A program made the position numbers and the translations under genes. This document shows, piece by piece, positions 455 through 8,008 of a DNA stretch of 8,008 nucleotides. The notes under the pieces are model-generated. The model was not told the origin of the DNA. It searched no databases and saw only the letters and a list, made by a program, of their open reading frames with translations. Positions within the stretch are counted from its first letter, which is position 1, and the number at the start of each line of letters is the position of its first letter. This DNA is from DATKZS01 sp035527835 [NCBI: bacterium] (GTDB lineage: Bacteria > RBG-13-61-14): positions 1 to 8,008 of the forward strand of contig DATKZS010000218.1 of NCBI GenBank assembly GCA_035527835.1, given 5' to 3'.

Positions 455-985
455 CTAGAACCCCGGCTCGATTTTCACTCCCACGCTCTTATGCAGATAA
501 TACCAGCGCGCACTGCTCCAAATGTAATCCTGGGGTGAGGCCTCCAGGCCTTGCTTGACCGGGTTGTAATGCATGTAATCCAATTTCTCGTGGGCCTTTT
601 CATGGGAGCGCACGGAAAAATCATAATAACGGCGGGTCCAGACCGAGACGATGTCGCGTCCGTTCCGGGTGATGTGGAGGTACGGCAGAACGGACGGGGA
701 ATGTTGCTCGTAGTACTTGATGAGGTAATGCGCGGAGAGGCGTTTCCAGGTCTTCATGACCTCGGCCAGGACGGAATCTCCTTGCTTGAACCAGAGCAGG
801 GCGTGGACGTGGTCAGGCATGATGACGAACCCGGAAACACTGACGCGGCCCTGGCGGGAGAGGCCGGAGAGGACGGAGATGACGATCTGGCGGGAGCGGG
901 GAGTGTTGAGCAATTGGCGGCGGCCGGCGCAGCCGAAGGTGACGAAGTGAGTGTTGCCGCCGCCGGTGATAGTGCGCTTGGTCAT
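455..985 (-). CDS. REP-associated tyrosine transposase (RAYT), Y1/HUH single-domain nuclease
   Basis: This 176-residue protein belongs to the Y1_Tnp family related to IS200/IS605 TnpA. The metal-binding HUH motif is visible as MPDHVHALLW (His59 and His61). The catalytic tyrosine is most likely Tyr137 in DYMHYNPVKQGL, which matches the YIHxNPVxxGL signature of RAYTs. The ending YIWSSARWYY is also typical. Such enzymes cleave single-stranded DNA at REP hairpins, often beside a GTAG/GGAG tetranucleotide, and REP-like repeats flank this gene on both sides. Length and motifs look intact, so it may be active. The start is uncertain: ATG at 985 lacks a clear Shine-Dalgarno sequence, and a TTG at 1021 in the same frame would add 12 residues. 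I prefer ATG because ITGGGNTHFVTF is the usual beginning of the domain. Confidence 0.92.
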   Translation of the reverse strand: MTKRTITGGGNTHFVTFGCAGRRQLLNTPRSRQIVISVLSGLSRQGRVSVSGFVIMPDHVHALLWFKQGDSVLAEVMKTWKRLSAHYLIKYYEQHSPSVLPYLHITRNGRDIVSVWTRRYYDFSVRSHEKAHEKLDYMHYNPVKQGLEASPQDYIWSSARWYYLHKSVGVKIEPGF

Positions 986-1049
986 GAGAGGATTATATAT
1001 TGGAGGAAATGGCAGGCGCAAGGGGAAGTACTCTCAGGTTGTTGGGCGG

Positions 1050-1360
1050 GCATCCTGCGGCGGAGCCGCCCACATAGCGGAGCTATGTGGGGTATCCGGG
1101 ATGGGAGCGGGTGCCTGATATGACAGATGCTGGAAGGTATCCTGCGGCCGGGGGCCGCCCACATAGCAGAGCTATGTGGGGTATCCGGGATGTGGGCGGA
1201 CGCCAGATATGAAGCCGGCGACGGGGCATCCTGCGGCGGAGCCGCCCACATAGCGGAGCTATGTGGGGTATCCGGGATGGGAGCGGGTGCTCGCTATGGA
1301 GCGCCGGACCAAGCATCCTGCGGCGGAGCCGCCCACATAGCGGAGCTATGTGGGGTATCC
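1050..1360 (+). repeat. Tandem array of four REP-like double-hairpin units
   Basis: Four units begin at 1050, 1137, 1226 and 1313, spaced 87, 89 and 87 bases. Cores are 1050-1097, 1137-1186, 1226-1273 and 1313-1360. Cores 1, 3 and 4 appear identical; core 2 differs around its first hairpin and is 50 bases. Each core has a short GGCGG/CCGCC palindrome and a second hairpin with a perfect 9-bp stem, CCCACATAG/CTATGTGGG (1069-1077 with 1083-1091 in unit 1). Both loops contain CGGAG. The layout GGAG, three bases, then a palindrome resembles REP elements recognised by RAYTs. Linkers of about 39 bases are also related, beginning GGGATG and mostly GGGATGGGAGCGGGTGC. Frames running through the array are open by chance and encode no real protein. 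Confidence 0.92.
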
Positions 1361-1455
1361 CGGTCATTAGCACGGATTTCATGAATAAGATCCTGGCCAA
1401 CTCATGCAGTTTTAAGGACATAAATTTGTAGTCCATGCACCGGATTATTTTATGA

Positions 1456-1490
1456 AATGAGGGTCTGGCCCAAAAGGCCAGACCCTCATT
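1456..1490 (-). terminator. Strong hairpin downstream of the Fe-S oxidoreductase gene
   Basis: A perfect 15-bp stem, AATGAGGGTCTGGCC (1456-1470) with its complement at 1476-1490, encloses a 5-base loop. It starts 25 bases after the oxidoreductase stop codon. The minus-strand sequence after it (TCATAAAATAATCC) is AT-rich but has no run of T, so it is either an imperfect intrinsic terminator or an mRNA 3'-end stabilising hairpin. It separates the operon from the repeat array. Confidence 0.7.
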
Positions 1491-1515
1491 CAGGTTATCG
1501 CCCGGTTCGAGGTGC

Positions 1516-3624
1516 TTAGGCGGCCATGACCTCGATGACGGATTTTGAGACGACTTTGGGGAGGCCGCCCATGGCTTCGATGACGAGTTCGGAGATGTCG
1601 AGGACCTGCATTTTTTCATCAAGGTCCAGGAGTTTCACCGAGTCATTCAGCATCTGCAGGCAATAGACGCAGCCCACGGCCACAATGTCCGCTTTGCCCT
1701 GGACCGCTTCCTTGACCCGGGCAACGTTGATGCGCTCTCCGTTGGGGATGTCCATCCAGTAATGGCCGCCGCCGCCGCCGCAGCACTGGCTCCGCTCGCG
1801 GGTGTTCTTGAGTTCGACGAGCTTCACGCCCTTGATGCTCTTCAAGATCTCGCGGGGCATATCGTAGATGTCATTATAGCGGCCCAGGTAGCAGGGATCG
1901 TGATAGGCGATGGTGCGCTCGATGGGCAGTTCGAGGTCGAGCCGGCCGTCCTTGATGAGCTGATGGATGAGCTCGGTGTGGTGGAGGACCTTGAACTTGG
2001 CGCCGAATTGCGGGTATTCGTTTTTGAACACATTGTAGCAGTGCGGGCATTGGGTGACCAGGTATTTGAATTTTCGGCTCGAGATTTTTTCGATTTGGCT
2101 TTTCGCGGTGGCCTGGAACAGGTTCTCGTCGCCGAGCACGCGGGCGGGATCGCCGCAGCAAAATTCCTCGTCGCCCATGACGCCGGAGGATATGCCGGCC
2201 TCATGGAGGATGGTGATGACGTTATAGGCGACCTTCTGCTTAATCTGGTCGTAGGTGGTGCAGCAGCCGATCCAGATCAGCATCTCGCATTCCTCGCCGG
2301 CGCCGATCACGGGGATCTTCATGTCCTTGATCCACTTTGAGCGCTCCTCCTGGGGCCCGAAGGGGTTGCCGCCGCGTTCGAGGGTCTTCAGGGCCACCGC
2401 GGCGTCGGGGGGACACTGGCCGCGCATCATGACCTCGCCCCGGCGGAGCTCCATGATCTGGGGGACGTGCTCGATGTGGGCGGGGCAGACTTCCATGCAG
2501 GCCCGGCAGGTCCGGCATTCCCAGATCACATCGTTCTCGATGACGTTGCCGACAATGGCCGCGGGCTCTTCGGGGGCCGCCTCGCCCTCACCGGCCGGCT
2601 TGCCCTTTCCATTCTTGACGCTCTTTTGGAACTCGGACCAGGCGAACTCTTTCATGTCGTTGATGAAGGTCTTGGGCGCGAGAGGATGCTTATTGATGTA
2701 AGAGGGGCAGACCTCGAGGCAGCGGCCGCAGCGCAGGCAGGAATCGTAGTCCAGCCGCATCTTCCAGGTCAGGTCCTTGGCCGCGGATACGCCCACGTTG
2801 AAGTTATCCATGGCCGCCTCGTCGTTCATCATGGCCTCGATGTCGGGCCGCTCGAGAGAACCCTTGGGCTCGAGCGAGCTGAAGAAGGTGTTGAGAGGCA
2901 GGGTGATGATGTGGAAGAACTTGGTGTACGGGATCGAGCCGATAAAGGTGAAGGCGACCAGGGCATGGAACCACCACAGCCCCTGATACACCCGCATCAC
3001 GGTGGCCTCGCTCATCCCGCCCATAACCTTGGAAAAGACCAAGCCGACCGGGGCCCAGGCCGCCCAGTGGTCCGGGGTATTGGCGATGCGTAAGCCCTCC
3101 AGGACAAAACCGGTGAGGGTCGCCGCGAAGAGCAGGATCAACACGAAGGCGTCGTCCCACTTGTTGTCCAGCCGCTCGGCCTTGACCACGTAGCGCCGGA
3201 AGCTCGCGATCCCGAGCCCGATCAGGAGTGCTAAGCCGGCGAGATCGGCCATCAAGGACACGACGAGGTAGAGCGAACCGTTGTAGATCGGGATTTGGAA
3301 GTCCACATCCAAAAAGACAATGGCGGTCGTGAGGGTAAGCAGGGCGAAGCTCCAGAAGATCAGGACGTGCAGAAGGCCGCCGGTGCGGTCCTTAAGCACC
3401 CGGGTCTGGAACGGGATTTCCCAGAAGACCTTCCCGGCCCGCGCCACGTACTGGCCGAACCGTTTGGGGTCCGGCTGGCCTTGCCTCCAGAAATTGAATT
3501 TCCGATACGCCCCGTAGGCGAAAGCTCCCAGAGATACGGCCAGGATCGGATAAATGAAATACTTGAAGGGCGCGGCAATATGCCAGTACATCTCTCGATG
3601 CGGGATTTCGATGGGTAACTGCAT
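1516..3624 (-). CDS. Membrane-bound heterodisulfide-reductase-like Fe-S oxidoreductase (HdrD/EMO type)
   Basis: This 702-residue protein probably passes electrons between a soluble donor and the membrane quinone pool. Residues 1-240 form a NarI-like membrane domain with about five helices (roughly 22-42, 83-105, 117-141, 159-181, 214-236) and candidate heme ligands His86, His220 and His238. Two 4Fe-4S motifs follow: C296-C299-C302-C306 and C370-C373-C376-C380. Two CCG domains come next: C454/455, C489-C490, C526 and C529; then C578, C614-C615, C652 and C655. This order matches the EMO-type proteins that oxidise electron-transfer flavoprotein, and more distantly HdrD, DsrK and HmcF. No etf genes are visible here, so the partner is unknown. 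All cluster ligands look intact. The ATG at 3624 is preferred over an in-frame TTG at 3654 because AGGAGG lies six bases before it. It is probably the last gene of an operon with the two resolvase-like genes. Confidence 0.93.
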   Translation of the reverse strand: MQLPIEIPHREMYWHIAAPFKYFIYPILAVSLGAFAYGAYRKFNFWRQGQPDPKRFGQYVARAGKVFWEIPFQTRVLKDRTGGLLHVLIFWSFALLTLTTAIVFLDVDFQIPIYNGSLYLVVSLMADLAGLALLIGLGIASFRRYVVKAERLDNKWDDAFVLILLFAATLTGFVLEGLRIANTPDHWAAWAPVGLVFSKVMGGMSEATVMRVYQGLWWFHALVAFTFIGSIPYTKFFHIITLPLNTFFSSLEPKGSLERPDIEAMMNDEAAMDNFNVGVSAAKDLTWKMRLDYDSCLRCGRCLEVCPSYINKHPLAPKTFINDMKEFAWSEFQKSVKNGKGKPAGEGEAAPEEPAAIVGNVIENDVIWECRTCRACMEVCPAHIEHVPQIMELRRGEVMMRGQCPPDAAVALKTLERGGNPFGPQEERSKWIKDMKIPVIGAGEECEMLIWIGCCTTYDQIKQKVAYNVITILHEAGISSGVMGDEEFCCGDPARVLGDENLFQATAKSQIEKISSRKFKYLVTQCPHCYNVFKNEYPQFGAKFKVLHHTELIHQLIKDGRLDLELPIERTIAYHDPCYLGRYNDIYDMPREILKSIKGVKLVELKNTRERSQCCGGGGGHYWMDIPNGERINVARVKEAVQGKADIVAVGCVYCLQMLNDSVKLLDLDEKMQVLDISELVIEAMGGLPKVVSKSVIEVMAA

Positions 3625-3630
3625 TTTGCG

Positions 3631-3636
3631 CCTCCT
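3631..3636 (-). promoter_or_regulatory. Shine-Dalgarno site that fixes the oxidoreductase start
   Basis: AGGAGG on the minus strand lies six bases before the ATG at 3624. The longer frame from TTG at 3654 would place this site inside the coding sequence, so the ATG is the likely start and the predicted ten-residue extension is not translated. Confidence 0.85.
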
Positions 3637-3696
3637 ATAATACGCACCCCTCAACTACCGGGGAGCGGTTGGGGTACTACCCGGCCCATCTTGCGC

Positions 3697-4140
3697 TTAG
3701 GCCACAACCTTCAGGCTCGCGGCTTCGACCCGAGCCTCCGCTTCCTTTTTCGCCCGTTCCGCCAGGTTGACGGCATAGCGATGGCGGACCTGCTGGCTGA
3801 CCATGTCCCACATATAGGAACTTGCGGCCAGGGTCACGTCCTGTTTGTCCAGCTCGGCAAGCAAGGGCTCGAGGTCCTTGTTCTTGCGGGCAAAGGCCCA
3901 GATGCGCTCGCAGAGGACCAGGTTATGTCTCTCCCGGCAGCTCAAAAGCTTCTGCACGCCCGGCCGGGCCATGACGTCCTTGTTGTAGGCGTCATCCTCG
4001 AAAACCGTGATCAACTCGACGCCCTCTTTCTCGGCCCACTTGGTGAGCCGCGCCCTCTGATCTTCCTTACCGATCACCTGGTCTGTGCCCGGGATAGGGA
4101 TCTCGCACACATAACCGACCGCTTTTTTCATCCTTTTCAT
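3697..4140 (-). CDS. Resolvase-fold pseudoenzyme, second copy of a tandem pair
   Basis: This 147-residue protein has the serine-recombinase N-terminal fold: KKAVGYV strand, KEDQR helix, RPGVQKLL, the ERIWAFARK segment and a basic C-terminal helix. Aligned by eye with gamma-delta resolvase, the catalytic serine position is Ile14, the first active-site arginine is Cys12, and the Asp-Arg of DRLxR is Trp-Ala. Arginines matching R45 and R71 (Arg59, Arg85) remain. It should not cut DNA. It also lacks the usual C-terminal helix-turn-helix. It is about 57% identical to the upstream neighbour over the same length without gaps (84 of 147, counted by eye). Start ATG at 4140 has AAGGAG seven bases upstream; the longer frame to 4257 runs into the neighbour's coding sequence. 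Function unknown; a structural or regulatory role is inferred. It lies 72 bp before the oxidoreductase gene. Confidence 0.82.
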   Translation of the reverse strand: MKRMKKAVGYVCEIPIPGTDQVIGKEDQRARLTKWAEKEGVELITVFEDDAYNKDVMARPGVQKLLSCRERHNLVLCERIWAFARKNKDLEPLLAELDKQDVTLAASSYMWDMVSQQVRHRYAVNLAERAKKEAEARVEAASLKVVA

Positions 4141-4177
4141 TTTCCTTCTCCTTTCCATATAACTTCGGCGTTGAAGA

Positions 4178-4621
4178 TTACGCGACCACTTTGAGATTCC
4201 TGGCTTCGGCCAGCGCCCGGGCTTCCTTGCGGCACCGGTCGGAGAGCTTGACGGCATAGCGGTGGCGCAGTTGCTGGCTCAGGCAGTCCCAGAGATAGGA
4301 GCTGGCCATCAGTTGCACGCCCTTGCGGTCGAGTTCTTTGAGGAAGGGATCGAGTGCCTTTTTCTTCCGGCTCAAGGACCAAACCCGCTCGACCAGGATG
4401 GTGTCGAACTCTTCCTTGCAGGCCAGGAGCTTCGCGAAGCCCGGCCGGCCGATGAAGTCTTCGGTGAACTTCTCGTCCTCGTAAATGCACGCCAGGTCCA
4501 GGCCTTCCTTTTGCGCGAACTTCAGCATCCGGAGCCTCTGGTCCTCCTTGCTGATAACCTCGTCAGTCCCGGGGATCGGGATGTCGCACACATAACCGAC
4601 GGCTTTTTTATTCTTTCTCAT
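4178..4621 (-). CDS. Resolvase-fold pseudoenzyme, first copy of a tandem pair
   Basis: This is also 147 residues and the probable first gene of the minus-strand operon, 37 bp before its paralogue. The resolvase-like core runs from KKAVGYV (residues 5-11) through KEDQR, the EDE strand end, RPGFAKLL, ERVWSLSRK and LKELDRKGVQLMAS. The catalytic motif GYxRVS is replaced by GYVCDIP, so the serine is Ile14. DRLSR is replaced by WSLSR, losing the key Asp-Arg. Features shared with the paralogue and absent from typical resolvases are the CxIPIPGTD segment, Cys12, Cys68, and the C-terminal SSYxWDxxSQQ and RHRYAV blocks. ATG at 4621 is chosen over one at 4639 because AAGGAGGT (4628-4635) lies six bases upstream. 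I do not know a function for this subfamily. Conservation of the same departures in both copies argues for a selected non-catalytic role rather than decay. Confidence 0.83.
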   Translation of the reverse strand: MRKNKKAVGYVCDIPIPGTDEVISKEDQRLRMLKFAQKEGLDLACIYEDEKFTEDFIGRPGFAKLLACKEEFDTILVERVWSLSRKKKALDPFLKELDRKGVQLMASSYLWDCLSQQLRHRYAVKLSDRCRKEARALAEARNLKVVA

Positions 4622-4677
4622 CTGAGTACCTCCTTCCATTTACTTGCCGCTTTTTTTTCGCTTCCGATCTCTTACTA

Positions 4678-4693
4678 TTCAATCTCGATGCCA
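4678..4693 (-). promoter_or_regulatory. Weak sigma-54 promoter candidate for the minus-strand operon
   Basis: On the minus strand TGGCAT-N5-TTGAA keeps the -24 GG and the TTG of the -12 box at correct spacing, but has A in place of the near-invariant C of the -12 GC. It would start RNA about 45 bases before the ATG at 4621. It is a hypothesis supported mainly by position. Confidence 0.2.
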
Positions 4694-4760
4694 AGGGACG
4701 GGCCGGTGGCAGCTCTCTGCCTGCAACAAATTGATATTTATAACGATTTTTCATGAAATC

Positions 4761-4766
4761 TGTATC
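4761..4766 (+). promoter_or_regulatory. TGTATC half-site of the dyad family
   Basis: A single TGTATC half-site followed by CG, as in the other copies. The right half is not conserved (AAACCG at the expected position). It lies 42 bases from the full dyad at 4802. Confidence 0.35.
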
Positions 4767-4801
4767 CGCCGGTAAACCGGGGGATGAGTTTTCAATCGTT
4801 T

Positions 4802-4820
4802 TGTATCAGGAGCGGATACA
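4802..4820. promoter_or_regulatory. Putative operator dyad 1
   Basis: TGTATCAGGAGCGGATACA is a perfect 6-N7-6 inverted repeat. It extends to 7 bp per arm if 4801 and 4821 are included. It is the full dyad nearest the minus-strand operon, about 180 bases before its first ATG. Confidence 0.6.
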
Positions 4821-4904
4821 ATAAACAAACCGGCCCCGTCCCGGTTGCCCGGATAACATGATGAAATAAAAAAGCTTTTCCAACGATGCCGGCAGAGTGG
4901 CCGA

Positions 4905-4923
4905 AATATCAGGAGCCGATGTC
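4905..4923. promoter_or_regulatory. Degenerate copy of the operator dyad
   Basis: AATATC-AGGAGCC-GATGTC keeps the central half of each arm and nearly the same spacer as dyad 1. It is weak alone and noted because it lies just before dyad 2. Confidence 0.2.
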
Positions 4924-4925
4924 CA

Positions 4926-4944
4926 TGTATCGCCGGCCGATACG
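4926..4944. promoter_or_regulatory. Putative operator dyad 2
   Basis: TGTATCGCCGGCCGATACG matches the 6-N7-6 pattern, with one change at the outermost base of the right arm. The spacer GCCGGCC differs from those of the other copies, so the arms rather than the whole sequence are conserved. Confidence 0.55.
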
Positions 4945-5126
4945 AGTGGTGAACTGGGATCCTTAAACACGGTGGGAGGCGGCCCTGGATTGGCGATTCC
5001 TTGGGGCATCGAGCAGCAACGTCCTTCAATGCCGTCCTTTTGCATGACTTTCAATCAGATCAATTGTAAAGATATTTGTCCGGTTGACAAAGACACCGCC
5101 GTTAAAGATATGTAAAATTTGACGGA

Positions 5127-5145
5127 TGTATCCGGTGGCGATACA
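5127..5145. promoter_or_regulatory. Putative operator dyad 3
   Basis: TGTATCCGGTGGCGATACA is a perfect 6-N7-6 inverted repeat with the same arms and spacing as dyad 1. It lies about 217 bases upstream of the sigma-54 promoter candidate, within the usual range of enhancer sites for sigma-54 activators. Confidence 0.6.
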
Positions 5146-5310
5146 CGGGCTGAGATAGAATGCATCCGTGCCGTGTTGCGCCCATGCCGCGCAATTTCGG
5201 GGGGACCCAGTGGTTTTCTCGCTACCGCATTGCAATCAATTGAAATCATGAATTTATTCCGGCCGGCTGACTTGGCGGATGTTTTAGCGCGATCCGGTCC
5301 GGCGCGGGGA

Positions 5311-5316
5311 TGTATC
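5311..5316 (+). promoter_or_regulatory. TGTATC half-site close to the sigma-54 promoter
   Basis: TGTATC followed by CGG as in dyad 3; the right arm is GAGATT, so only GA matches. It lies about 45 bases before the -24 box. Confidence 0.3.
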
Positions 5317-5361
5317 CGGCCGGGAGATTCAGGGAGCGCGGCCATCGAAAGTCGGGGTTCA

Positions 5362-5377
5362 TGGCACGTAAATAGCA
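5362..5377 (+). promoter_or_regulatory. Sigma-54 promoter candidate for the two-component operon
   Basis: TGGCAC-GTAAA-TAGCA matches the sigma-54 consensus TGGCAC-N5-TTGCA at all positions but one, with the invariant GG and GC exactly ten bases apart. RNA would start near 5388, giving a leader of about 48 bases before the kinase ATG. The second gene of the operon is itself a sigma-54 activator, so autoregulation is plausible. Confidence 0.55.
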
Positions 5378-5435
5378 CTAAAATCCTGCTGGAGTGGTCC
5401 GGAGCCGCGGATCGTCCGGAAGGTGGGGAGTATTG

Positions 5436-6830
5436 ATGAAGGAGTTTTCGCCTCGGGAACAGGAGTTGCTGGAGCGGCTTGACTGGTTTGTCAAGTTGCG
5501 ATGGCTGTTTCTGTTGGGTCTGGCGGCGCTGATATTTTTCTCGGTACGGGTTTTCGGGCTGGAGCTTGATCTTCATGCCATCGGTCCGATCGCGGCGGCG
5601 GTGCTCCTTTACAACATCGGGTTTTTCGTTCTGCACCTCTTCCAATCGCGCTTCAAGAGGACACCGCTCTCCCTGCGGATCGAGGCCAACCTGCAGATCG
5701 GCCTCGACCTCCTGGCCCTGGTCCTTTTGATCCACGTGAGCGGGGGCATCGAGAACCCGTTCATTTTCTTTTTCATCTTCCACATGATCATGGGCAGCAT
5801 CCTGCTCTCGGGCCGGGACATCTGGTATCACGCGGGGGCCACGGTGTTCCTGCTGTTTTTGCTGCTCGGGCTTTCCTACCTGGGCGTGATCAGTCACTAC
5901 CACATCCGGGGGTTTGCGTCGGCGGATTTGTGGAACAACGAGCCCTACATCCTGGCGGGGGCCGTGGCCTTTGGCACCACCATCCTGATGACGGTTTACA
6001 TGACCAACTCGATCACCAGGAGCGTGCGCCACCGCCAGGACGAGCTGCTCCTGGCCAAGGGCCAGATCGAGAACAAGTCGCGCGAGCTGGAGCAGGCGAA
6101 CCGGGAGCTGATCCGGCAGCAAAACCTGCTGGTGCGCTCGGAGAAGCTCGCGTCGCTGGGCAAGCTCTCGGCCGGCGTCGCGCACGAGCTTAACAGCCCG
6201 CTCACCGGGATCATGAACTTTTCCTATTTCATCCGGGACGCCTGCCCGGAAAAGGAGCAGGTGCAGCTCGACGTGGCCGTGGTGATCCGGGAGACGGAGC
6301 GGTGCAAGAAGATCATCAAGGGACTGCTCGATTTCGCGCGGCAGAGCGAGCCGGAGAAGAGGGAGAACGATGTGCTGGAGATCCTGAAGAAGACCATCGC
6401 GCTGGTCGAGAACCACAAGGACTTCCGCGAGATCGAGATTATCAAGGACTTCGACTCGGGCCTGCCCCGCCTCATGCTCGACCGCGACCAGGTCCAGCAG
6501 GTCTTCATGAACCTGATCGTGAACGCGGAGGAAGCCATGAACGGGGCCGGCACCCTTTACGTGCGGGCCAAGCCGGGGCCGGACGGCCAGTCGGTGGTGA
6601 TCATGTTCCGCGACAACGGCCCGGGAATGGACGAGGACACGATGCGAAAAATTTTCGACCCCTTCTTCACCACCAAGGAAATGGGCACCGGGCTCGGACT
6701 GTCCGTCAGCATGGGCATCATCGTGAACCACGGCGGCGAGCTGGAGGTGGAGAGCAAGAAGGGCGGCGGCGCATGTTTCACCATAACGCTGCCGGCCAAT
6801 TCCGGGGCCGGCGGGAGGGCGGCGGCATGA
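5436..6830 (+). CDS. Membrane sensor histidine kinase with RegB-like quinone motif
   Basis: This 464-residue inner-membrane kinase probably senses a membrane redox signal and phosphorylates the next gene's product. About six helices are visible (roughly 22-40, 48-68, 85-101, 108-125, 130-152, 170-190). The loop before helix 4 reads GGIENPF (103-109), matching GGxxNPF, the quinone-binding motif of RegB/PrrB. A probable coiled coil (200-235) leads to a complete kinase core: H-box AGVAHELNSPL with phosphorylated His250, N-box around Asn363, DNGPGM (393-398), FDPFFTTK (407-414) and GTGLGL (417-422). The core is NtrB/HK4-like. No PAS domain is present. Cys270 and Cys290 lie just after the H-box; whether they act like the RegB redox cysteine is unknown. 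ATG at 5436 has GGGGAG five bases upstream and is preferred over an in-frame GTG at 5394. The stop overlaps the next start as ATGA. Confidence 0.93.
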   Translation: MKEFSPREQELLERLDWFVKLRWLFLLGLAALIFFSVRVFGLELDLHAIGPIAAAVLLYNIGFFVLHLFQSRFKRTPLSLRIEANLQIGLDLLALVLLIHVSGGIENPFIFFFIFHMIMGSILLSGRDIWYHAGATVFLLFLLLGLSYLGVISHYHIRGFASADLWNNEPYILAGAVAFGTTILMTVYMTNSITRSVRHRQDELLLAKGQIENKSRELEQANRELIRQQNLLVRSEKLASLGKLSAGVAHELNSPLTGIMNFSYFIRDACPEKEQVQLDVAVVIRETERCKKIIKGLLDFARQSEPEKRENDVLEILKKTIALVENHKDFREIEIIKDFDSGLPRLMLDRDQVQQVFMNLIVNAEEAMNGAGTLYVRAKPGPDGQSVVIMFRDNGPGMDEDTMRKIFDPFFTTKEMGTGLGLSVSMGIIVNHGGELEVESKKGGGACFTITLPANSGAGGRAAA

Positions 6831-8008
6831 AGGGCGTCAACATATTGGTGGTGGACGACGAGGAGGTCGTGCTGCAAAGCTGCGCGCGCGCGCTGGGCGC
6901 GCACCGGTACAAGGTCACCACCGCGCACAGCGTGGACGAGGCGCTGGAGCAGCTCGGCAAGCGTTACTTCCACGTGATCATCGTGGACCTGATCATGCCG
7001 AAAAAGGGCGGCATGGAGCTGTTGAAGTACATCAAGCAGCACTTCACCCGGGCCCAGGTCATCATGATCACCGGCTATTCCTCCATCAACACCGCGGTCG
7101 AGGCCATCAAGCTGGGCGCGTACGATTACCTGTCCAAGCCCTTCTCGCCGAACGAGCTGGTGATCACCGTGAAGAACGCGCTCGAAGGCAAGGGCCGGTC
7201 GCTCTACCCGTTCCTGTCGGACCACGAGCTGCCGGCGCAGATGATCTTCGACAACATCATCGGCCAGAGCCCGCGCATGATCGAGGTTTTCAAGCTGATC
7301 AGCAAGATCGCGGCCACCGATTCCACCGTGCTCATCACCGGCGAGTCAGGCACGGGCAAAGAGCTGGTGGCGCGGGCCATCCACAAGAACTCGCACCGCT
7401 CGGACGCCAAGTTCGTGACGGTGGACTGCTTGGCGCTCACTCCGACGCTCCTGGAGAGCGAGCTGTTCGGGCACACCAAAGGGTCATTCACGGGAGCGGT
7501 GTCAACCAAGGTCGGCTTCTTCGAGGTCGCCAACGGGGGCACGCTGTTCCTGGACGAGATCGGCGATCTGTCCTTCGAGCTGCAGGGCAAGCTGCTTCGC
7601 GTGATCCAGGAGCGCAAGTACATCCCGGTCGGCGGCACCGAGCCCAAGCAAACCGACATCCGCCTGATCGCGGCCACCAACAAAAACCTGAAACAGATGG
7701 TGCTGACCGGGGCCTTCCGCGAGGACTTGTTCTACCGACTCTACGTGGTCCCTATCTTCCTGCCCCCGCTCCGCGAGCGCAAAGAGGACATCAGCATCCT
7801 GGCCGAGCATTTCTTTCACAAGTTCTGCGTTAAGTACAATCGGCCGCTGCTCAAGCTGCCCGCGGCCATCGTCGAGGCCCTGACCTACTACAACTGGCCC
7901 GGCAACATCCGCGAGCTGGAGAACAGCATCGAGCGCGCGGTCCTCTCCTGCGAGGGAGACGAGCTGACTCCTGCCGACCTGCCCGGCTCGGTGCGGGAAG
8001 CCGGGCCC
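6827..8008 (+). CDS. NtrC-family sigma-54 response regulator, 3' end outside the window
   Basis: The first 394 residues are visible with no stop. A receiver domain (1-120) has acidic residues Asp10-Asp11, phosphorylated Asp54 in VDLIMP, Thr82 and Lys104. A linker leads to an AAA+ domain from about 143: Walker A GESGTGKE (172-179), sigma-54 contact loop GSFTGA (219-224, serine in place of the usual alanine), Walker B GGTLFLDEI (237-245), the arginine-finger region FREDLFYRL (297-305) and the WPGNIRELEN sensor II segment. The missing part should be a Fis-type helix-turn-helix of about 50-70 residues. The start overlaps the kinase stop, indicating translational coupling and a cognate pair. GGGAGG lies eight bases before the ATG. 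Phosphorylation should trigger ATP-driven opening of sigma-54 promoters; candidates lie in the upstream intergenic region. Confidence 0.95.
   Translation, partial: MKGVNILVVDDEEVVLQSCARALGAHRYKVTTAHSVDEALEQLGKRYFHVIIVDLIMPKKGGMELLKYIKQHFTRAQVIMITGYSSINTAVEAIKLGAYDYLSKPFSPNELVITVKNALEGKGRSLYPFLSDHELPAQMIFDNIIGQSPRMIEVFKLISKIAATDSTVLITGESGTGKELVARAIHKNSHRSDAKFVTVDCLALTPTLLESELFGHTKGSFTGAVSTKVGFFEVANGGTLFLDEIGDLSFELQGKLLRVIQERKYIPVGGTEPKQTDIRLIAATNKNLKQMVLTGAFREDLFYRLYVVPIFLPPLRERKEDISILAEHFFHKFCVKYNRPLLKLPAAIVEALTYYNWPGNIRELENSIERAVLSCEGDELTPADLPGSVREAGP

Follow-up and report, generated by a model that had tools for sequence, protein, structure and literature searches.

The window, by which the whole stretch of 8,008 nucleotides is meant, contains two adjacent genes on the reverse strand, here called paralogues A and B, which are followed directly on the same strand by the gene for a membrane Fe-S oxidoreductase and are divergent from the genes for a sensor histidine kinase and a sigma-54-activating response regulator (Table 1). 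Counted from ATG, A and B have 147 codons apiece and are separated by a gap of 37 bp. A gap-free BLASTP alignment finds 83 of 146 residues identical (57%) and 115 of 146 similar, so the two adjacent 147-residue paralogues of about 57% identity that were reported in an earlier note on this DNA are present as described. Elsewhere in the window there is a REP-associated tyrosine transposase gene (458-982, reverse strand; NCBIfam NF047646 at 107.2 bits, cut-off 80), flanked by REP-like palindromic repeats, with four 75-nt copies at a spacing of 87-89 nt at 1048-1385, a further copy at 405-444 and another, inverted, at 273-317.

Table 1. Features of the window and their positions
Feature	Position	Strand	Description
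Paralogue A, first gene of pair	4178..4621	-	147 aa, dead resolvase-fold protein; ORF, BLASTP, Pfam, model, alignment
Paralogue B, second gene of pair	3697..4140	-	147 aa, dead resolvase-fold protein; ORF, BLASTP, Pfam, model, alignment
Membrane Fe-S oxidoreductase, 702 aa	1516..3624	-	NarI-type membrane part, two CxxCxxCxxxC motifs, two CCG domains; EtfAB:quinone oxidoreductase / DUF224-like
Sigma-54-type -24/-12 box TGGCATCGAGATTGAA	4678..4693	-	2 mismatches to TGGCAYRNNNNTTGCW, weakest of six; 72 nt ahead of A start
IHF-type site TATCAATTTGTTG	4724..4736	-	perfect match to WATCAANNNNTTR; 43 nt upstream of box
Enhancer-like palindrome GTATC-N7-GATAC	4803..4819	.	126 nt upstream of box
Enhancer-like palindrome GTATC-N7-GATAC	4927..4943	.	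250 nt upstream of box
Third palindrome GTATC-N7-GATAC	5128..5144	.	451 nt upstream of box, closer to kinase gene
Divergent sensor histidine kinase	5436..6830	+	PilS-like membrane part, quinone-type motif GGIENPF; Pfam, NCBIfam, motif
Sigma-54-activating response regulator	6827..8008	+	receiver + AAA+ (Pfam); cut by window end

Both paralogues exceed the cut-off of the Pfam Resolvase family (PF00239, 23.3 bits), with B at 39.9 bits (E 5.6e-10) and A at 33.5 bits (E 5.5e-8), and in both the match starts at profile position 15, past the region of the catalytic serine. Matches in PHROGs are to integrase and invertase families alone, at E 2.3e-6 or weaker. The structural models reach a pLDDT of 72.2 for A (four alignment rows, with residues 108-129 below 50) and 79.6 for B (five rows), and their top matches among solved structures are the catalytic domains of serine recombinases. 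The TP901-1 integrase is matched by the model of A with Z 14.4 and an rmsd of 5.5 over 116 residues and by that of B with Z 15.3 and 5.0 over 123, the corresponding values for the IS607-like TnpA 6dgc being Z 13.7 and 2.5 over 99 for A and Z 14.7 and 2.2 over 96 for B. With the model of B the N-terminal part of HflX scores too, at Z 9.9 and an rmsd of 5.3 over 123 residues, closely following many serine recombinases. In both models the chain ends in a long C-terminal helix (116-146 in A, 108-145 in B) with nothing beyond it, and no further Pfam domain is detected, which bears out the earlier observation that the two proteins lack a DNA-binding helix-turn-helix. The same holds more widely, as Pfam finds no DNA-binding domain in five family proteins (A, B and those of loci L015, L016 and L017, introduced below), and Pfam scans of family proteins gave no match to a cofactor family.

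The active site was compared across 12 family domains, two from the window and ten from three other genomes, and against 8 catalytic recombinases found by the same kind of search, using position labels that we take to be those of gamma-delta resolvase. In A and B S10 is replaced by Ile, R8 by Cys and D67 by Trp, the R68 position is Ser in A and Ala in B, and R71 is retained. The replacement of the catalytic serine by Ile, that of the first active-site arginine by Cys and the missing Asp-Arg of DRLxR had all been claimed for the two paralogues, and it is apparent that the same positions are lost throughout the family. In the column of the catalytic serine, the nucleophile of Y-x-R-x-S, ten of the 12 domains have I and the other two V, against S in all 8 catalytic relatives; R8 has become C in six and A in six, against R in 8/8; D67 is W in every family domain, against D in 7/8; and R68 is A in nine, S in two and C in one, against R in 8/8. 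Other columns have been kept, R71, Q28, D49, P60 and R85 in all 12 domains, R59 in 10/12 and R45 in 10/12, with Q in the remaining two.

Nineteen columns are invariant across the 12 domains, and they include E78, R79, W81, R85, W111, D112, S115, Q116 and R119, which lie within former active-site segments. Of these, D112 and R85, and likewise a basic residue at position 79, are also common among the 8 catalytic relatives and may therefore serve the fold. Of the conserved blocks listed in the earlier note, CxIPIPGTD is not retained in the branch formed by the third genome, G257, whereas W81, the WD..SQ stretch (111-116) and R119 are the same in all 12 domains. A function for Cys12 and Cys68 had also been suggested; across the family this is not supported, and the idea was dropped, because Cys12 is Cys in six domains and Ala in the other six and Cys68 is Cys in just 5/12.

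In a phylogenetic tree the 12 family domains split from the 8 catalytic relatives with support of 100/99; most forks within the family stay open. Seven comparisons of dN/dS by the Nei-Gojobori method gave 0.33, 0.17, 0.32, 0.33, 0.35, 0.10 and 0.16, values that are rough because dS is greater than 1 in six of the seven, but that point to purifying selection. Tandem pairs, which the earlier note had proposed to look for in other genomes, recur in two, G001 and G002. Together with the loss of the same positions in 12/12 domains, the rough dN/dS range of 0.10-0.35 and the well-supported split, this recurrence upholds the view that A and B belong to a distinct non-catalytic subfamily and are not products of decay. 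It was also considered which of A and B corresponds to the first and which to the second gene of the other pairs; the motifs suggest a swapped order, and as the tree does not settle the matter no orthology is assigned.

The other members of the family come from locus L001 in genome G001, L007 in G002 and L015, L016 and L017 in G257, G002 and G257 being assemblies of many contigs. L001, the second tandem pair, belongs to a metagenome-assembled genome labelled uncultured delta proteobacterium, 'AlinenSediments'. It was one of two loci returned by a scan of contigs with a single protein as query, the other (L002) being a catalytic recombinase. Within the phylum of G001 the pair is present in two of three genomes, G001 and G002. 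Among 395 sampled genomes of another phylum, that of G004, only G257 was found at E 1e-18; its six family domains are spread over a three-domain, a two-domain and a one-domain gene, and within the class of G257 the family occurs in 1 of 17 genomes. A search of 395 genomes with a larger profile, in the same phylum and probably the same draw, found 9 at E 1e-9. The weakest of the six G257 domains scored E 1.1e-59, and no further genome scored better than 2.5e-13. Homologues with a catalytic serine, of the kind that the earlier note had named as telling against its view, thus do exist, but outside the family, as all eight of those further genomes keep the Ser. The family is known from the window and three genomes, and its prevalence is a lower bound since the sole scan of genome contigs used one protein and gave two loci.

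Phage records searched with A gave no match, and two scans of viral contigs gave no confirmed relative. Plasmids searched with A gave one weak match, a recombinase at 30.9% identity and E 9e-4, and a search of plasmids with a G257 domain gave none. On these results an origin from phage or plasmid was dropped.

The order of kinase and regulator genes, pair and Fe-S oxidoreductase gene is shared by the window, L001 and L007, with the Fe-S gene of the latter two truncated by the contig end. L001 also encodes a protein of 195 residues (927-1514, reverse strand) with no Pfam match at E 0.001, its gene being flanked by those for the regulator and a short-chain dehydrogenase. The loci of G257 are arranged differently. 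At L015 a sigma-54 regulator gene runs divergently from the three-domain gene, and a related Fe-S gene, truncated by the end of the same contig and 52% identical over residues 390-691, is parted from the three-domain gene by the regulator gene and about 2.7 kb. At L017 the divergent neighbour of the one-domain gene encodes a PAS kinase, and at L016 the two-domain gene adjoins a convergent pyridine-nucleotide-disulphide oxidoreductase gene, with no kinase or regulator seen by eye among the ORFs of at least 130 aa. Nor was an Fe-S gene seen by eye in those ORFs of L016 or in bases 1-6000 of L017. The three G257 genes (L015 253-1761, L016 6318-7403 and L017 314-1018, all on the reverse strand) share a short C-terminal tail, AAIAKPERFHFxG, after the last domain, in which there is no Pfam domain. 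Taken over the six loci, five adjoin a kinase and/or regulator gene, three have the family directly upstream of the Fe-S gene, and five carry non-identical pairs or repeated domains. In genome G003 the Fe-S gene is present (65% identity) and no pair was detected, but the contig ends 66 bp upstream of that gene and the best kinase match is only 39%.

The kinases of all three window-type loci (window, L001 and L007) carry GGIENPF, an instance of the heptapeptide GGxxNPF; it is absent from the kinase of L017. In PMC8191878 the heptapeptide is given as the quinone-binding motif of RegB. The NCBIfam RegB-family model NF033792 matches the window kinase over residues 14-454 with 128.3 bits, and as this is far under the cut-off of 350 the kinase is not filed as RegB. 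CCG-type membrane Fe-S proteins (DUF224) have been named EtfAB:quinone oxidoreductase in Syntrophomonas wolfei, according to PMC3582634, and by comparison with that protein the gene downstream of the pair may be regarded as menaquinone-oxidoreductase-like, although the window shows no EtfAB gene. With a quinone sensor next to such a gene, the two would form a coherent loop.

Ahead of every one of the six units there is a match to TGGCAYRNNNNTTGCW, with 2 mismatches in the window, 1 each in L001 and L007 and none in L015, L016 and L017. When each 200-base stretch was shuffled 2000 times with dinucleotides preserved, the box was equalled in 35 shuffles for the window, 12 for L001, 3 for L007, 0 for L015, 0 for L016 and 1 for L017. 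In L017 the distance from the box to the domain start used is 188 nt, and the box falls within the beginning of the longest ORF. Upstream of the box in the three window-type loci the palindrome GTATC-N7-GATAC recurs at similar offsets, counted from the start of the box as for the IHF-type sites: -126 and -250 (and -451) in the window, -128 and -252 in L001, -128 and -249 in L007, the two at -128 having one mismatch each. All three loci have a perfect match to WATCAANNNNTTR, which we take to be the IHF consensus, at -43. In 2000 single-base shuffles of 130-base stretches a perfect IHF match arose anywhere in 9, 67 and 54 cases for the three loci, and both patterns were picked after the sequences had been inspected, so the equal offset is a stronger point than the match itself. 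The remaining intergenic DNA of these loci is, by eye, mostly unalignable. In the G257 units palindromes of the form GTATA-N7-TATAC stand at -194, -196 and -192, which was observed only after the fact, and the IHF-type site at -43 is absent. Palindrome counts at up to 2 mismatches in the G257 loci do not clearly exceed those of shuffles (60, 147 and 183 of 1000).

Genome-wide, the perfect GTATC-N7-GATAC occurs once in G001, twice in G002, once in G003 and three times in G257, with one occurrence in each for a reversed control pattern. As this count hardly exceeds the control, it is the location of the palindromes and not their number that is informative: the pair locus holds the only perfect site of G001 and one of the two of G002. 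Of the seven perfect sites in the four genomes, both pair-locus sites have a sigma-54 box nearby that deviates at no more than 1 position, and the other five have none; the window's own box, with 2 mismatches, would fail this test. This distribution suggests that a regulator may be dedicated to the pair locus, and the putative binding by regulator, IHF and sigma-54 is read from consensus matches. A scan of 3550-5450 for sigma-70 promoters and terminators found 2 and 2, against shuffle means of 1.0 and 2.5. The conserved promoter, and the link to a kinase with a quinone motif and a menaquinone-oxidoreductase-like gene, are new, the earlier note having missed them. In the window a second sigma-54-type box, TGGCACGTAAATAGCA (5362-5377, forward strand, 1 mismatch), faces the kinase gene, and the kinase and regulator genes may therefore be autoregulated; in L001 and L007 no box was found ahead of the kinase at up to 2 mismatches.

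A further feature of the family is found at the protein C-termini, which in nine family proteins end in AA (seven) or VA (two), whilst of 98 background frames, some of them family members and others spurious, AA ends 12 and VA none. By the rule for ClpXP-type degrons, these ends could be degrons of that type.

Taken together, these observations allow a scheme to be proposed. The kinase would read the menaquinone pool through GGxxNPF and phosphorylate the divergent regulator, which may then bind the GTATC-N7-GATAC palindromes whilst IHF bends the DNA, and the promoter that the pair shares with the menaquinone-oxidoreductase-like gene would then be fired. The long C-terminal helix is the element by which resolvases dimerise; A and B may pair through it and, without cleaving DNA, would most likely serve as a short-lived feedback regulator of their own promoter or of the kinase-regulator pair. 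The two- and three-domain versions in G257 make an A:B heterodimer more plausible. The parts of this scheme differ in strength. That the family is a dead subfamily set within a sigma-54 redox module is very likely, and the pair is probably a non-catalytic hetero-oligomeric component of a quinone-sensing module of this kind. The explanation as a whole, a domesticated subfamily of dead serine recombinases acting as the output of a sigma-54 two-component switch, with feedback as its likely action, is given a probability of roughly 0.55. Feedback regulation as the exact role of A and B is put forward tentatively. Somewhat doubtful is the most detailed version, in which the proteins would be obligate hetero-oligomers, built from two genes or from two to three fused domains, made when the membrane quinone pool demands it, quickly degraded, and feeding back on the looped promoter of the menaquinone oxidoreductase.

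At the three window-type loci the pair immediately precedes the Fe-S gene on the same strand, a position that would also suit an accessory protein or assembly factor, co-expressed and regulating nothing, that serves the membrane oxidoreductase or the flavoprotein feeding it. We infer this role, like that of the favoured feedback regulator, from context, and it is the main rival. The related Fe-S gene on the L015 contig agrees with it, but the regulator gene and the 2.7 kb that part this gene from the three-domain gene do not, nor does the failure to see an Fe-S gene in the stretches of L016 and L017 that were inspected, and a kinase or regulator is a neighbour at more loci (5/6) than have the family directly upstream of the Fe-S gene (3/6); an accessory role is considered unlikely. 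The resolvase fold and long C-terminal helix of the models instead call to mind a non-cutting DNA-architecture protein, with a dimer that would bind and bend or bridge DNA in the manner of resolvase dimers, across the chromosome and not at this operon, and the multi-domain versions could bridge sites. R8 and R68 are active-site residues near the DNA in resolvases, however, and both have been lost, and the five proteins scanned with Pfam have no DNA-binding domain, so that general architecture appears rather improbable.

The 19 invariant columns, several of them in former active-site segments, raise the idea of a new enzyme or ligand-binding protein that reuses the old cleft with other residues. 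This appears quite improbable, with D112, R85 and the basic residue at 79 being usual in the catalytic relatives too and no cofactor family matched. The proteins might also be decaying recombinases of a mobile element that sit in the operon by chance, as their fold is typical of mobile-element enzymes and a REP-associated transposase gene lies 2.7 kb off. Decay would have to account for identical positions lost in all 12 domains, open frames, dN/dS of 0.10-0.35, and a layout and promoter repeated in separate genomes, and the searches gave no match in phage records, no confirmed one in viral contigs and one weak one in plasmids; this reading is scarcely credible and was dropped on the shared losses, the dN/dS values and the repeated layout and promoter. 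A short-lived non-catalytic regulator is favoured because five of six loci lie by a kinase or regulator gene, the recombinase active site is lost, the five proteins scanned have no DNA-binding domain, pairs or repeats occur at five of six loci and the proteins end in AA or VA.

Amongst known systems the nearest likeness is to the catalytic domain of serine recombinases (PF00239; TP901-1 integrase, Sin, gamma-delta resolvase), with which the family shares the fold, the columns Q28, D49, P60 and R85, mostly R59, as well as D112 and the long C-terminal helix. It differs from them in the absence of the catalytic Ser, R8, D67 and R68, in that no DNA-binding domain was found, in consisting of 147 aa or of repeated domains, and in lying next to cellular redox and two-component genes. 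A and B also match the fold of IS607-family TnpA (PDB 6dgc, 6dgb), a serine transposase with a catalytic Ser, nearly as well as any other. The DNA-binding domain of TnpA is N-terminal, as stated in PMC6188088. Neither that domain nor the serine is found in A or B. The window kinase resembles RegB/PrrB/ActS kinases in having GGxxNPF in its membrane part. RegB is partnered by RegA, whereas the partner here is a sigma-54 activator and not RegA-like, and the NF033792 score is below the cut-off. The window Fe-S protein, membrane-bound and with 4Fe-4S motifs and CCG domains, is like the DUF224 EtfAB:quinone oxidoreductase of S. wolfei, its gene differing in that it comes after a dead-resolvase pair and a sigma-54-type promoter.

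The promoter itself has the look of a sigma-54 promoter with enhancer, as a putative box precedes six of six units and, in all three window-type loci, palindromes and an IHF-type site stand at matching offsets. Owing to this geometry the system is directly testable, and sensor, activator sites, target genes and candidate feedback protein all lie within about 6.5 kb. Among the titles and abstract openings of one open library no paper on a dead serine-recombinase protein of this kind was found. Recombinases recruited by cells are described in a review, PMC8987985, as enzymes that rearrange DNA; if the reading favoured here is true, a conserved family of dead serine recombinases in the redox control of anaerobic electron transfer would represent another route of domestication.
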